NCBI GenBank assembly: GCA_023130215.1
Contig: JAGMAN010000047.1
Location: 1 to 6,512, forward strand
Reading direction: 5' to 3'
Length of the DNA stretch: 6,512 bases
From: a bacterium
GTDB lineage: Bacteria; NPL-UPA2; JAGMAN01
Shown: piece after piece, positions 433 to 6,144 of the stretch
How the letters are laid out: each line of letters begins with the position of its first letter
Position numbering within the stretch: position 1 is the first letter of the stretch
Position numbers and translations under genes: made by a program
The notes under the pieces: model-generated
What the model was told of the DNA's origin: nothing
Seen by the model: only the letters and a program-made list of their open reading frames with translations
Database searches by the model: none

Positions 433-441
433 CATTGTTTG

Positions 442-1491
442 ATGAATGATGTGGTGAGAAAAGAAGACCTTCTGGGCAAAATCTCTGTCTTGATTGAGCA
501 GGCAAGGAAGAAGGTTGCCCTGACAATCAATCAGGAGATGGTAATTCTTTACTGGAATATCGGTAAAGTAATCAAAGAAGAGGTAATAAAGACGGATAGG
601 GCTGAGTATGGAAAACAAATAGTGCAATCACTGACTGCACAATTGGTCCCAGCATATGGAAGAGGATATTCTAAAAGAAATTTATGGTATATGGTACAGT
701 TGTATGAAAGCTGCCCAATTCTCCAATCACTGCTTGGAGAATTTGAAGGGTTGAGCTGGACACATGTAATAACTCTTTTGCCCGTGAAAGACAAATTAAA
801 GCAAGAGTTTTATGCTCTCTTGTGTCAGAGAGAACACTGGAGTAGCCGTATACTTAGAGAAAGAATAGGCGGTATGCTTTATGAAAGGACAGCATTATCT
901 AAACTTCCTGAGAAAACTATAGAAATGCAGTTGAAAGAGTTGAAAGAAAAGGACAAGATTACACCAGAACTTGTATTCAGAGACCCCTATGTTCTGGATT
1001 TTCTGGAACTTACAGATACTTACAGCGAAAGGGACTTAGAAAAGGCAATATTGAATGCTTTGGAGAAATTTATTGTTGAATTGGGAAAGGATTTCTATTT
1101 TGTGGCAAGGCAAAAGAGGATTACGCTTGATAATGAAGATTATTATATGGATCTGGTTTTTTATCATAGAAAACTGAAATGTTTTGTTGTAATAGAGCTG
1201 AAACTTGATAAATTTAGAGCAGAACACAAGGGACAGATGGAGCTTTATCTCAGATATCTTGAAAAATATGAAATGGAGGATGGGGAAAATCCGCCATTGG
1301 GGATTATCCTTTGTGCTCAAAAAGGCAGAGAGCAAATAGAGCTGTTGCTTTTGCCAGAAGACAGGATAAAAGTGGCCGAATATTTGACAAAACTGCCGCC
1401 AAAAGAATTATTTGTGGAGAAATTGCACAAGGCTATTCAGGTCGCTCAGCTGAAACTGGCAGAAGGAAAGAGTGAAATTAAAAAGCGATAG
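442..1491 (+). CDS. DUF1016/YhcG-family PDDEXK nuclease
   Basis: The protein has 349 residues, about the usual length for the family, so it looks intact. The N-terminal half (about 8-160) is the helical DUF1016 N domain, with the hallmark stretches ARKKVALTINQEMVILYWNIGK, YGRGYSKRNLWYM and SWTHVITLLPVKD. The C-terminal half (about 165-330) is the YhcG PDDEXK nuclease domain: DPYVLDFLEL, then YYMDLVFYHRKLKCFVVIELK, with putative metal-binding Asp237, Glu252 and Lys254 in the D-x14-E-x-K arrangement, then GQMELYLRYLE. Family members are found in defence islands and with mobile elements and restriction systems. The biochemical role is not established beyond nuclease-fold membership, and a role in degrading foreign DNA is an inference. 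An alternative in-frame ATG at 415 would add 9 residues. The gene is followed after 9 bp by a truncated cas1 on the same strand. Confidence 0.92.
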   Translation: MNDVVRKEDLLGKISVLIEQARKKVALTINQEMVILYWNIGKVIKEEVIKTDRAEYGKQIVQSLTAQLVPAYGRGYSKRNLWYMVQLYESCPILQSLLGEFEGLSWTHVITLLPVKDKLKQEFYALLCQREHWSSRILRERIGGMLYERTALSKLPEKTIEMQLKELKEKDKITPELVFRDPYVLDFLELTDTYSERDLEKAILNALEKFIVELGKDFYFVARQKRITLDNEDYYMDLVFYHRKLKCFVVIELKLDKFRAEHKGQMELYLRYLEKYEMEDGENPPLGIILCAQKGREQIELLLLPEDRIKVAEYLTKLPPKELFVEKLHKAIQVAQLKLAEGKSEIKKR

Positions 1492-1500
1492 GAATGAATT

Positions 1501-1650
1501 ATGCAGTTAGTCATCAATACCCGTGGTTCGTATCTGCGGAAAAGGAATGAGTGCTTTTTGGTTAAGTGCACTCCGGAGGGAGAAACTGAGGAAAAGGTTT
1601 TTGAGGTTTCGGCCAAGAAGGTGAGCAGTATTATGAGAGGACTTCTTTGA
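1501..1650 (+). pseudogene. cas1: Truncated cas1 (N-terminal fragment of the CRISPR integrase)
   Basis: ATG at 1501 begins MQLVINTRGSYLRKRNECF, continues LVK, and after an acidic insert reaches KVFEVSAKKVSSI. This is the start of the beta-strand-rich N-terminal domain of Cas1, the integrase that inserts spacers into CRISPR arrays. The resemblance ends at codon 44 (about 1632), where the family normally continues with a hydrophobic I-L/V-T-T/N segment. Instead the frame reads M-R-G-L-L and stops at 1648-1650, inside DNA that is the antisense of the etfA 3' end. The catalytic Glu, His and Asp lie in the missing C-terminal domain, so the fragment cannot act as an integrase. AGGA at 1490-1493 is a reasonable ribosome binding site, 7 nt before the ATG and overlapping the nuclease stop. 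No Cas2, repeats or other cas genes are visible. Confidence 0.75.
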
Positions 1651-2821
1651 ATTTCTTAGTCAGGGTGGGGACGACCTGGAAGAGGTCGCCTACTATTCCA
1701 TAGGTAGCTATATTGAAGATGGGAGCATTGGGGTCTTTATTTATGGCCACGATGTTATCCGAGGACCTCATTCCTACCAGGTGCTGAATGGCTCCTGAAA
1801 TTCCACAGGCGACATATAATTTTGGCTGAACGGTCTTTCCTGTCTGACCGACCTGATGGTAGGAGGGAATCCAGTTAGCATCCACGGTAGCCCGGGAGGC
1901 TCCCACTGCTCCCCCTAATACTTCTGCTAATTGCTCAATTAACTTAAAATTCTCCGCCTTTCCTAAACCCCTTCCACCAGAGACGATAATCTCGGCTTCC
2001 TGCAAATCAACTACCTTAGTCTCCTCCCGGATAATATCCAAGACTTTGGTAACTATATCTTCCCTGCTGATCTTGGGATTAACCTTAATGATCTCTCCCT
2101 TTCGAGAACTATCTGGACTGGGCTTTTTCATTACCTTGGGTCTCACCGTAGCCATCTGAGGACGATAATGGGGGCAGATGATGGTAGCCATGATATTTCC
2201 CCCAAAAGCAGGTCGGGTCTGACGCAGTATTTTCTTCTCTTTATCTATGTCCAGTCCGGTGCAGTCAGCAGTAAGGCCAGTCTGGATGCGAGCGGCTATT
2301 CGAGGAGCTAATGATCTGCCGATGGTAGTAGCTCCGAAGAGGACTATATCTGGCTTGTGTTCTTTTATTAAATCTGTTAACACCCGGGCATAGGAGCCAT
2401 ATTGGTAATGCCTTAATCTTTCATCGCTGGCTAAATAAACTTTATCTGCTCCATAGCTAATGAGCTCTTTGGCTTCGGACTCCATGCCATCTCCGAAGAG
2501 CACTGCATCTAACTCTTCTCCCAAATCATCGGCTAATTTTCTTCCTTCTCCTAACAGTTCTAAACCTACCGGCTGGAGTTTACCATCCCGCTGCTCGGCA
2601 AAGACCCAGACCCCTTGATAATCTTCCAAACCTTCTACTTTTTTCTCCTCTTTCTCCAGAAGAATAGCCTCAAAAGGGCAGACCTCTACACATGCCCCGC
2701 AGAGGTTACAGTTCTCTAAGATCTTAGCCTTCTCATCAACAATCTCTATTGCCCCAAAGGAACAGGCGGCCAGACACTTCTCACAGCCAGTGCATTTATC
2801 AATGATTATCTCTATGAGCAT
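1631..2821 (-). CDS. etfA: Electron transfer flavoprotein alpha subunit with N-terminal 2x[4Fe-4S] ferredoxin domain
   Basis: The protein has 396 residues, longer than a standard EtfA (about 320-340) because of an N-terminal ferredoxin module. Cys10, 13, 16 and 20 and Cys38, 41, 44 and 48 form two CxxCxxCxxxC cluster motifs. The EtfA N domain follows (about 70-230), with LFGATTIGRSLAPRIAAR. The FAD-binding C domain (about 275-390) carries SGGRGLG, GASRATVDANW, QVGQTGKTV and GISGAIQHLVG. In the family, such proteins pair with EtfB to pass electrons between NADH or ferredoxin and a flavin dehydrogenase in the cytoplasm. Ferredoxin-domain EtfA proteins occur in electron-bifurcating complexes of anaerobes such as lactate or caffeyl-CoA systems. 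The start is coupled to the etfB stop (TAATG), with AAGG 7 nt upstream. The C-terminus is full length, but its TAA sits on the junction with the cas1 fragment. The physiological partner is not in the window. Confidence 0.95.
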   Translation of the reverse strand: MLIEIIIDKCTGCEKCLAACSFGAIEIVDEKAKILENCNLCGACVEVCPFEAILLEKEEKKVEGLEDYQGVWVFAEQRDGKLQPVGLELLGEGRKLADDLGEELDAVLFGDGMESEAKELISYGADKVYLASDERLRHYQYGSYARVLTDLIKEHKPDIVLFGATTIGRSLAPRIAARIQTGLTADCTGLDIDKEKKILRQTRPAFGGNIMATIICPHYRPQMATVRPKVMKKPSPDSSRKGEIIKVNPKISREDIVTKVLDIIREETKVVDLQEAEIIVSGGRGLGKAENFKLIEQLAEVLGGAVGASRATVDANWIPSYHQVGQTGKTVQPKLYVACGISGAIQHLVGMRSSDNIVAINKDPNAPIFNIATYGIVGDLFQVVPTLTKKFKEVLS

Positions 2822-3612
2822 TAAATGACCTTGGCCTCCCTTAACTTGGAAACTAATGCTTCTACTTGCTCAGGGACGGTTCCCTCTAAGAGCTCCCCCT
2901 TGCCCGGTGGTTCAGGAGTGAAGATCTTTATGACCTGAGTTGGGGAACCATCCAGGCCAATTCTTTCCTTATCTAAATCAAGGTCAGTTGCTTTCCAAAC
3001 AGGAATCTGTGCCTTTTTTGCCCTTAATACACCACGCATTGAAGAATAACGGGGCTCATTCATCTCCTTGGTCACCATAAAGACCGCAGGCAATTTTGTC
3101 TCAACCACTTCGAAAGCGTCTTCTAAGGTTCTCTGTGCTTTCACCTTGCTATTTTCGATCTCCAATTTCCGCACATAAGTTATCTGGGGCAGTCCCAGTC
3201 GTTCAGCTACTCCCGGTCCCACCTGTGCAGTGTCTCCATCAATAGCTTGCTTGCCAAAGAGAATAAGGTCGAACTGGCCTATCTTCTTAATGGCGGTAGA
3301 CAAAGCATAAGAGGTAGCCAGAGTATCAGACCCAATGAGGGCAGGGTCACTGAGCAGTATGGCCTCATCAGCTCCCATAGCTAAGGCTTTTCTAAGAGCC
3401 TCCTCTGCCTGAGGTGGCCCCATAGTAATGACAGTTACTTTGCCTCCATGTTTTTCCTTAAGGCGAAGAGCCTCCTCAATAGCATTCTCGTCGAATGGAT
3501 TGATGATAGAAGGAATCCCTTCCCGAATGAGGGTATTTGTCTCACCATTTATTCTCACGCTACCGAGGGATTCGGTATCCGGCACCTGTTTTATACAGAC
3601 AATAATATTCAT
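2821..3612 (-). CDS. etfB: Electron transfer flavoprotein beta subunit
   Basis: The protein has 263 residues, the normal length for EtfB. It starts with [15 protein letters not shown], typical of the family, and has [16 protein letters not shown] (38-53), the nucleotide-binding segment [18 protein letters not shown] (123-140), and the EtfB signature [16 protein letters not shown] (185-200). It forms the heterodimer with EtfA. In bifurcating Etfs the beta subunit holds a second FAD where ordinary Etfs hold AMP; which one applies here cannot be decided by eye. Its ATG overlaps the threonine synthase TGA (ATGA, 3609-3612) and its TAA overlaps the etfA ATG. I see no good Shine-Dalgarno sequence before it, so translation is probably coupled to the upstream gene. 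Confidence 0.95.
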
Positions 3613-4670
3613 TCTGAAAAACCAATTTCTTTGAGGACAGCATCTACCTGGACAGGAATTATAACTGGCTCTCCCACTACCTTTACTGCCCGGTCTGGAT
3701 CCTTCAGTCCATGTCCGGTGATAATACAGACTATACTTTCCCCCGGCTTAAAGTAGCCCTTCTTACTCAGCTTAATTAATCCAGCCAAGCCAGCGGCTGA
3801 AGCGGGCTCCACAAAAATTCCTTCTAAGTTAGCTAACATTTTATAAGCATTGATAATTTCCTCATCACTCACCATATCAATCATCCCGCCTGATTCGTCC
3901 CGGGCAGCTTCCGCTCTTTTCCAACTGGCCGGGTTGCCGATTCTAATGGCAGTAGCAATCGTTTCCGGGTTCTCAATGGGATGTCCTCTGACAATGGGAG
4001 CGGCTCCCTCTGCCTGAAAACCCATCATCTTAGGGAGCTTCTCCGCATTACCGGCTTTGTGGTACTCCTTATATCCTTTCCAGTAAGCAGTAATATTGCC
4101 GGCATTTCCCACAGGCATGAATTGATAATCGGGTGAATCGCCTAAGACATCAATGATTTCAAAGGCGGCCGTTTTCTGCCCCTCAATCCGATTGGGGTTG
4201 AGGGAATTAACCAAGGTAATGGGATATTTAGAGGTAATCTCTCTTACTAAATTCAGAGCATCATCGAAATTCCCATCTACGGCCAATACCTTAGCCCCAT
4301 GCACTAAAGCCTGGGCCAGTTTCCCTAAGGCAATGGCCCCTTTGGGAATCAAGACGATGCACTTCATCTTACCCCGAGCGGCATAGGCGGCGGCCGAGGC
4401 AGAAGTGTTCCCGGTGGAGGCGCACATCACTGCCTTTGAGCTTTCCTCCAGGGCTTTCGAGACCGCTACCGTCATCCCCCTGTCTTTAAAGGAACCCGTG
4501 GGATTCAGTCCCTCATACTTGAGATAAACTTTTAGGTCCTGGCCGAGCGCCTTAACTAAATTCTCCGCCTTAATGAGAGGAGTATTCCCTTCCTTCAGAG
4601 TCACTACCGGCGTCCTATCAGTGACCGGCAAGTAGTCTTTATATTTATCAATTACCCCTTTCCAAACCAT
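3609..4670 (-). CDS. thrC: Threonine synthase (PLP-dependent)
   Basis: The protein has 353 residues, matching the short bacterial/archaeal type of threonine synthase. It converts O-phosphohomoserine to threonine in the cytoplasm, the last step of the pathway. Seen in sequence: EGNTPLIKA near the N-terminus, the PLP lysine Lys62 in [11 protein letters not shown], the [14 protein letters not shown] stretch (84-97), the phosphate-binding PVGNAGNI (186-193) and [11 protein letters not shown] (288-298). The start at 4670 is preferred over an in-frame ATG at 4733. It has GAGGG just upstream, and the extra 21 residues of the longer form (with N-S-M-N-S-M-N) are simply translated intergenic repeat. 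The gene overlaps etfB by 4 bp, so it heads a three-gene thrC-etfB-etfA operon. Homoserine dehydrogenase is the next gene upstream; homoserine kinase is absent here. Confidence 0.94.
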
Positions 4671-4674
4671 TATT

Positions 4675-4679
4675 CCCTC
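4675..4679 (-). promoter_or_regulatory. Ribosome binding site of threonine synthase
   Basis: Read on the minus strand, AGAGGGAATA lies directly before the ATG at 4670, with GAGGG about 4 nt upstream. The spacing is short but usable. It supports the 353-residue start over the one at 4733, which lies inside a repeat and has no such site. Confidence 0.5.
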
Positions 4680-4697
4680 TCGCCTTACACTGTAGTA

Positions 4698-4744
4698 GTT
4701 CATTGAGTTCATAGAGTTAAAGAACTCAAGCAACTCAAGTAACT
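4698..4744. repeat. 9-bp-period repeat with internal inverted repeat
   Basis: The plus strand reads AGTTCATTG, AGTTCATAG, AGTT, then after a short turn AACTCAAGC, AACTCAAGT, AACT. The left arm is a tandem 9-mer and the right arm is the near-complementary 9-mer, so the whole is palindromic. TTGAGTTC (4703-4710) and GAACTCAA (4722-4729) form a perfect 8-bp stem around an 11-nt centre. It sits in the gap before thrC and would be in the leader of any transcript entering thrC. It resembles short dispersed intergenic palindromes or MITE-like units, but no second copy is in the window. There is no T-run, so it is not a typical terminator. Confidence 0.7.
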
Positions 4745-4796
4745 ATATCATTGATTCCGCTCGAATGAGCATGGTCTTAGCTTTGACTACAGCAAC

Positions 4797-4826
4797 ATGG
4801 TAGCATAAAGAGGGTAGGACAGTCAA
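4797..4826 (-). promoter_or_regulatory. Candidate sigma70 promoter for thrC-etfB-etfA
   Basis: On the minus strand, TTGACT (4826-4821) is followed after 18 nt by TACCAT (4802-4797), with TG one base before the -10 box (extended -10). The -35 matches 5 of 6 consensus positions and the -10 matches 4 of 6. The predicted start is about 4790, giving a leader of about 120 nt that includes the 9-bp repeat. The hom-thrC gap of 196 bp makes an own promoter reasonable, but the operon could also be read from the hom promoter. Confidence 0.35.
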
Positions 4827-4866
4827 ATAAAAAGCAGGAACAAGGTGGGAATGAAAAGGTTCTAGA

Positions 4867-6144
4867 TTAAAAAACTTTTTCCTCTATTCTTATTAGTTTA
4901 GTTTTGCTTTTCACTATAGGAAGTTTATCTATTATCTTAACTGCTTTTTGAGCTTCTCTTTCTACTGCTTCATCAGTAATTATTATTATAGGCATGACTG
5001 CCCCAATTTCTTCACCTTTTTGAATAACCTTTCTTATATTGATGTTATATTTTGCTAAAACAGAAGCAATTTTAGCCAAAACCCCAGGTTTATTGATGGC
5101 ATTAAAGCGAATATAATATTTACATTTAATTAAAGGCATTTTTTTGATGGAAAGCTTTTCAATTGGCTCTGGCAAGTAAATTCCTGAATCATTTGCTATA
5201 TCAATCAAATCGGCAAGAACCGCACTTGCTGCCGGGTTGCCACCAGCGCCTTCCGCTATCAATCCACCATTTCCTCTAGCCTCATCAATGATTTCAATAC
5301 CATTTTCAACCCCTTTAAGTAGTGCCAGGGATTTGTTTTTGGGCACTAAGCAAGGGTGCACTCTAACCTCCAAAGCATTATTCTCTCTCTTAACTATTCC
5401 AAGCAATTTAATGGCATATCCCAACTCCTTTGCAAATTGAACATCTTGTATTTCAATATTTCTTATTCCTTCAATATAAAAACTATCTGGTTTTAAGTTA
5501 TATACAAACGCAAGCCTGACAATTAATATTAATTTATAGGCACTATCTAAACCATCAATATCTAATGAAGGGTCTCTTTCTGCATACCCTAATTTCTGTG
5601 CTTGCTTTAGAGCATCAGAAAAACTCATATCATTCTCTTCCATTTGGGACAGAATGTAGTTAGTGGTTCCATTAAACACTCCCAAAATACTTTTAATTGT
5701 TCCACCGTACTCTAAATGATTTAGTACCTGATGACAACCCGTCATCGCTGCCCGGAACCCCAGGTAACGGTTGTTCTTGTTGGCTTCCCTGAATAAGCTT
5801 TTTCCATGCAAGCCTAATAAATGTTTATTGCCGGTAACCACATTTTTCTTTCTTTTTAGAGCCTCTCTAATTATTTTGTGGGCTGGATCAATACCGCCAA
5901 TAAGTTCAATTACTGTGTCAATTTCAGAATCGCCCAATATTTCTTCTACATTTTTACATAAAATACCCCTAAATGATTTTAGATTTTTTTTCTTTTTCGG
6001 GTCTTTTTCCGCAATTCTCTTTAAATAGAAATTTAATCCATGTTGCTTTTTTAGTTCATTTTTTCTTTCTTCTAATAGGTCAAAAACACTATAACCCACA
6101 GTTCCTAAACCAATAAGTCCTATGGTCAATTTCTTTTCTTTCAT
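4867..6144 (-). CDS. hom: Homoserine dehydrogenase with C-terminal ACT domain (divergent)
   Basis: The protein has 425 residues, the usual length for the Hom-ACT form. It reduces aspartate semialdehyde to homoserine with NAD(P)H. The Rossmann fold is marked by GLGTVG (12-17). TGNKHLL (104-110) has the conserved Lys107. NGTTNYIL spans 158-165. YAERDPSLDIDGLDSAYKL keeps Glu189, Asp200 and Lys204 with the spacing of the yeast catalytic residues Glu208, Asp219 and Lys223. GAGGNPAASAVLADL spans 299-313. The ACT domain (about 345-422) begins RFNAINKPGVLAKIASVLA and is the usual site of threonine feedback control. Odd points: the usual F-E-A-S-V-x-G-G-I-P loop reads FRAAMTGCHQV (130-140), so the Glu and Gly-Ile-Pro are lost, and the gene is visibly A+T- and Lys-richer than thrC and etfBA. 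There is no clear Shine-Dalgarno sequence before the ATG. It may be a divergent or transferred Hom. Confidence 0.87.
   Translation of the reverse strand: MKEKKLTIGLIGLGTVGYSVFDLLEERKNELKKQHGLNFYLKRIAEKDPKKKKNLKSFRGILCKNVEEILGDSEIDTVIELIGGIDPAHKIIREALKRKKNVVTGNKHLLGLHGKSLFREANKNNRYLGFRAAMTGCHQVLNHLEYGGTIKSILGVFNGTTNYILSQMEENDMSFSDALKQAQKLGYAERDPSLDIDGLDSAYKLILIVRLAFVYNLKPDSFYIEGIRNIEIQDVQFAKELGYAIKLLGIVKRENNALEVRVHPCLVPKNKSLALLKGVENGIEIIDEARGNGGLIAEGAGGNPAASAVLADLIDIANDSGIYLPEPIEKLSIKKMPLIKCKYYIRFNAINKPGVLAKIASVLAKYNINIRKVIQKGEEIGAVMPIIIITDEAVEREAQKAVKIIDKLPIVKSKTKLIRIEEKVF

Follow-up and report, generated by a model that had tools for sequence, protein, structure and literature searches.

Gene content of the window

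The window, by which we mean the whole stretch of DNA analysed (6,512 nucleotides), is one entire contig of a 1.01 Mb draft genome consisting of 136 contigs and estimated as 90% complete. It was compared with G001 and G002, which belong to the same genus, and with G004, which belongs to the same order; the window genome, G001 and G002 are sister species, not strains. The features on which the analysis rests are the following.

439..1491, plus strand: intact yhcG-like DUF1016 / PD-(D/E)XK nuclease gene, whose start may be 415 (Pfam, PADLOC)
1501..1636, plus strand: remnant of the 5' end of a subtype I-B-like cas1, comprising codons 1-45 plus 1 nt (amino-acid identity to G001 and G002 Cas1; PADLOC Cas1b)
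1501..1650, plus strand: chimeric 49-aa frame of 45 Cas1 codons, 4 antisense etfA codons and the stop TGA (open reading frame list, alignment)
1631..1636, no strand: probable deletion junction with the 6-bp microhomology TTATGA (window aligned to the cas1 starts and etfA ends of G001 and G002)
1631..2821, minus strand: etfA, electron transfer flavoprotein alpha with an N-terminal ferredoxin domain, intact down to the stop codon (Pfam ETF/ETF_alpha)
2821..3612, minus strand: etfB, flanking metabolic gene (Pfam ETF, NCBIfam)

The yhcG product matched Pfam YhcG_C (4e-51) and DUF1016_N (3e-41) as well as the PADLOC model PDC-S02 (6e-125). Upstream of it, on the plus strand at 266-427, lies a 53-aa open reading frame, possibly the relic of a second DUF1016 gene, with an end (DEYVLEFLDLSETFSE) similar to residues 190-205 of the protein encoded by yhcG. 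On the other side, EtfA of the relatives shares 82-90% amino-acid identity with that of the window. Further along, the window encodes a homoserine dehydrogenase (4867-6144, minus strand) with 38-39% identity to its G001 and G002 counterparts, which likewise lie between thrC and the gene for LL-diaminopimelate aminotransferase; those two are 90% identical to each other. Since the window enzyme is nearest to that of G004 (55%) and then to those of G006 and G008 (~50%), hom of the window looks like an in-place replacement by a distant version.

A cas1 remnant joined to antisense etfA

Residues 1-45 of the 49-aa frame align with the start of the 329-aa Cas1 of G001 at 98% amino-acid identity (E=4e-25) and with that of the 329-aa Cas1 of G002 at 89% (E=2e-22). 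Among the profiles, PADLOC Cas1b recognized the frame significantly (E=2.5e-8; the full G001 Cas1, as a comparison, scored 1e-142), while TIGR00287 (E=0.021) and Pfam PF01867 (E=0.081) stayed under their curated cut-offs because the piece has only 45 residues. The fragment thus belongs to the Cas1 family by sequence similarity, and we regard its direct identity to two full-length Cas1 proteins of the same genus as the decisive evidence that it is a remnant of cas1. The first-pass annotation had described the first ~44 codons of cas1 as well preserved up to a boundary with antisense etfA; the preservation holds, the length is corrected to 45 codons plus 1 nt (1501-1636), and the boundary is as described, in that six shared bases overlap the etfA end and the last four codons of the frame are antisense etfA.

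The frame stops after 45 Cas1 residues, so the remnant amounts to 14% of cas1 and is without the catalytic C-terminal domain. One might still propose that it was kept as a small gene with a function of its own, for instance as a regulator or a decoy built on the N-terminal domain of Cas1, given that its start codon and frame are preserved and that it differs from G001 cas1 over the 45 codons by one amino-acid change and 5 synonymous ones. However, this stretch has too few codons for purifying selection to show, the catalytic domain is gone, and a stand-alone 49-aa gene is found in neither same-genus relative, where the same residues open a 329-aa Cas1 encoded by a full-length cas1 at the same position. 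We consider such a gene extremely unlikely, and the frame is best taken as a non-functional pseudogene.

The intact locus in two sister species

In G001, contig C103 carries, in order, an ATPase gene (AAA_14/DUF4143), a yhcG scar, cas1, cas2, cas4, a CRISPR array and etfA in antisense, with these coordinates.

1168-2157: cas1
2162-2452: cas2
2482-3081: cas4
4512-4547: tenth repeat
4581-5771: etfA, on the strand opposite to the cas genes

The array comprises nine repeats of 36-37 nt with spacers of 36-39 nt, then a 613-bp gap and the tenth repeat. That 613-bp stretch (3907-4511), which separates the ninth repeat from the last in place of the expected spacer, carries an open reading frame of ~190 aa with no Pfam match. 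In G002 the locus is split over two contigs: C26 holds cas8b (partial), cas7b, cas5b, cas3, cas6b, a small open reading frame, a DUF6036 nucleotidyltransferase gene, cas1 and cas2, and C44 starts near the array end with one repeat at 59-94, 33-36 bp from etfA, which follows. Since the array or its last repeat is followed by etfA in both genomes, etfA downstream of the array is a shared arrangement.

The models of subtype I-B CRISPR-Cas (cas8b/Csh1, Csh2, Cas5b, Cas3, Cas6b, Cas1b, Cas2b, Cas4b) fit the G002 locus and the adaptation part of the G001 locus. A subtype I-B locus with array is thus present in G002, and its adaptation part with array in G001; in contrast, the window holds the 14% of cas1 and no other part of such a locus. 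The I-B locus of G001 shows adaptation genes and array only, and G001 contig C155 (3-2760) encodes a type III-like Cas10 (Csm1) and a Cas6; the I-B-locus array may feed this type III complex.

The junction and the missing segment

The window follows cas1 as far as AGTATTATGA (1636) and follows the etfA end starting at TTATGAGAGGAC (from 1631 on), the two overlapping in TTATGA. This hexamer occupies cas1 codons 44-46 in G001, where the breakpoint reads AGTATTATGATCAC, and the 3' end of etfA, comprising the stop and the last Ser codon, in G002. The match is exact with the etfA end of G002 (GTTATGAGAGGACC) and 5/6 with that of G001 (GTTACGAGAGGAGT; TTACGA), so that the microhomology is one we infer for the ancestor. 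Read on the other strand, the TTA of the hexamer is the stop codon of etfA (1631-1633), and etfA is therefore complete. The window lacks all sequence beyond cas1 codon 45 and up to that stop codon, a segment of 3,283 bp in G001 (1298 to 4581).

A total homology of at least 6 bp at random breakpoints has a computed chance of 0.22%, and TTATGA at both breakpoints points to microhomology-mediated illegitimate recombination. By its sequence the junction has the form of such a deletion, a short identical sequence at the breakpoints with one copy retained. No insertion sequence end or mobile element was seen at the window junction, no direct repeat joining cas1 and the etfA end was found within the G001 locus, and the junction has no hairpin beyond chance; the junction is thus not that of a mobile-element or long-homology deletion. 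Of the two causes first put forward, recombination or mobile-element activity, only the former, through 6 bp of microhomology, agrees with these data. The cas1 side differs from G001 by 5% and the etfA side by 13%, and both stand in the right order and orientation, which argues that both sides of the junction are own-lineage sequence.

Two other origins were considered. That a transferred cas1 fragment had been inserted was rejected because the order yhcG-cas1-etfA is common to the window and G001. An autoimmune spacer as the cause was examined by comparing the eight ordinary spacers of G001 with the window, where the best match was 15 nt and not meaningful.

CRISPR genes in the rest of the window genome

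The 90%-complete window genome contains no Cas1 elsewhere, no Cas2, no Csm1/Cas10 and no copy of the CRISPR repeat, nor did it yield relatives of the sister-genome Cas2, Cas3, Cas4 and Cas7. No Cas3 was found above the cut-off, the sole match reaching 32.9 versus 102 bits, and weak Cas3 matches of this kind occur in all control genomes. Cas6 (PF10040) was likewise not found, in a search that is not exhaustive since this model did not recognize the Cas6b of G002 either. The contigs missing from this 136-contig draft may carry cas genes or an array. The suggestion that a complete cas1 and perhaps an array persist elsewhere in the genome or in related strains is thus not supported for the assembled genome itself, which has no such gene or repeat, and correct for relatives, these being related species.

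An assembly or amplification chimera, in which the true genome retains cas1, cas2 and the array and the contig falsely joins two places, has to be weighed here, as the genome is a draft, assemblies break at CRISPR arrays, the G002 contigs end inside this very locus, and amplification chimeras often join at microhomologies. Yet a 6-bp overlap is far under assembler k-mer lengths, so that reads should span the junction; the missing Cas1, Cas2, Cas4 and repeat are on no contig of the window genome; and the join leaves etfA whole up to its stop codon. We hold a chimera to be unlikely, and the contig appears correctly assembled at the junction.

Histories of yhcG, cas1 and etfA

At synonymous sites the window and G001 differ by dS 0.20 in the cas1 remnant and 0.54 in etfA, while G001 and G002 differ by 0.34 in etfA and 0.71 in whole cas1; Fisher tests on these sites, which are not strictly independent, gave p = 0.026 and 1e-5. 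cas1 and etfA thus give conflicting relationships among the three genomes, and the window and G001 seem closer to each other in the yhcG-cas1 block than in the adjoining etfA. This suggests either that the defence block was exchanged between lineages or that the G002 version was acquired from a more distant source. The few changes between the remnant and G001 cas1 lend little weight to the earlier view of a fairly recent loss, and the deletion is datable only as later than the common ancestor that the window and G001 share in the yhcG-cas1 block.

The opposite loss is seen in G001, which retained cas1, cas2 and cas4 and lost the upstream yhcG that the window retains: at 1095-1167 of C103, about the first 11 codons of yhcG remain and are joined directly to GATAGGAATGAATT-cas1. 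A second yhcG tail in G001, 85% identical, opens contig C92 before a different gene. With yhcG whole in the window and cut in G001, two independent deletions would have struck neighbouring genes in two sister lineages. Insertion of yhcG in the window lineage was judged less likely than its deletion in G001, because AAAGCG, immediately followed by GATAGG in the window, is also found ahead of cas1 in G002 and is absent in G001; the first yhcG codons are not conserved in other homologues and so cannot decide between the two. The yhcG-type nuclease survives in one sister lineage and the adjoining adaptation module in the other, so the two might be alternatives, incompatible or redundant, and their losses not unrelated; we think this very unlikely.

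Discussion

Taken together, we conclude, with a probability of nearly nine in ten, that the window carries the scar of a single deletion by which ~3.3 kb including a CRISPR adaptation module and its array was lost through recombination at TTATGA. The ancestor would have had the arrangement (yhcG)-cas1-cas2-cas4-CRISPR array-(etfA, antisense), derived from a subtype I-B locus. Through strand slippage or alternative end joining, the TTATGA in cas1 codons 44-46 would have recombined illegitimately with the TTATGA at the stop codon of etfA. This would have removed ~3.3 kb, a size taken from G001 whose true value depends on the lost array, and left 45 cas1 codons beside an intact etfA. Synteny with G001 and G002 shows that a CRISPR adaptation locus was lost, as the first-pass annotation had it, and its array with it. 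Spacer acquisition needs Cas1-Cas2 and repeats, and a locus devoid of these also yields no crRNA. As no cas1, cas2 or repeats were found elsewhere, the cell presumably can no longer acquire spacers.

In Staphylococcus epidermidis CRISPR-Cas deletion mutants, whole-locus deletions abolish immunity, sometimes at little fitness cost, and their junctions lie mostly in IS elements or long homology, with deletions of 65-306 kb (PMC3784566). The window is like these mutants in the loss of a CRISPR locus by deletion, whereas its scar is without an IS element, spans ~3 kb, has 6 bp of microhomology and lies in a wild genome. More generally, CRISPR loss is common and well described, and the loss in the window is an ordinary kind of event with clean evidence. 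It offers a clean case of an adaptation module and array lost in one small step, documented both before and after the loss by three genomes of one genus in a little-known candidate phylum, and indicates that a short cas1 open reading frame in an annotation can be, as here, a deletion scar.
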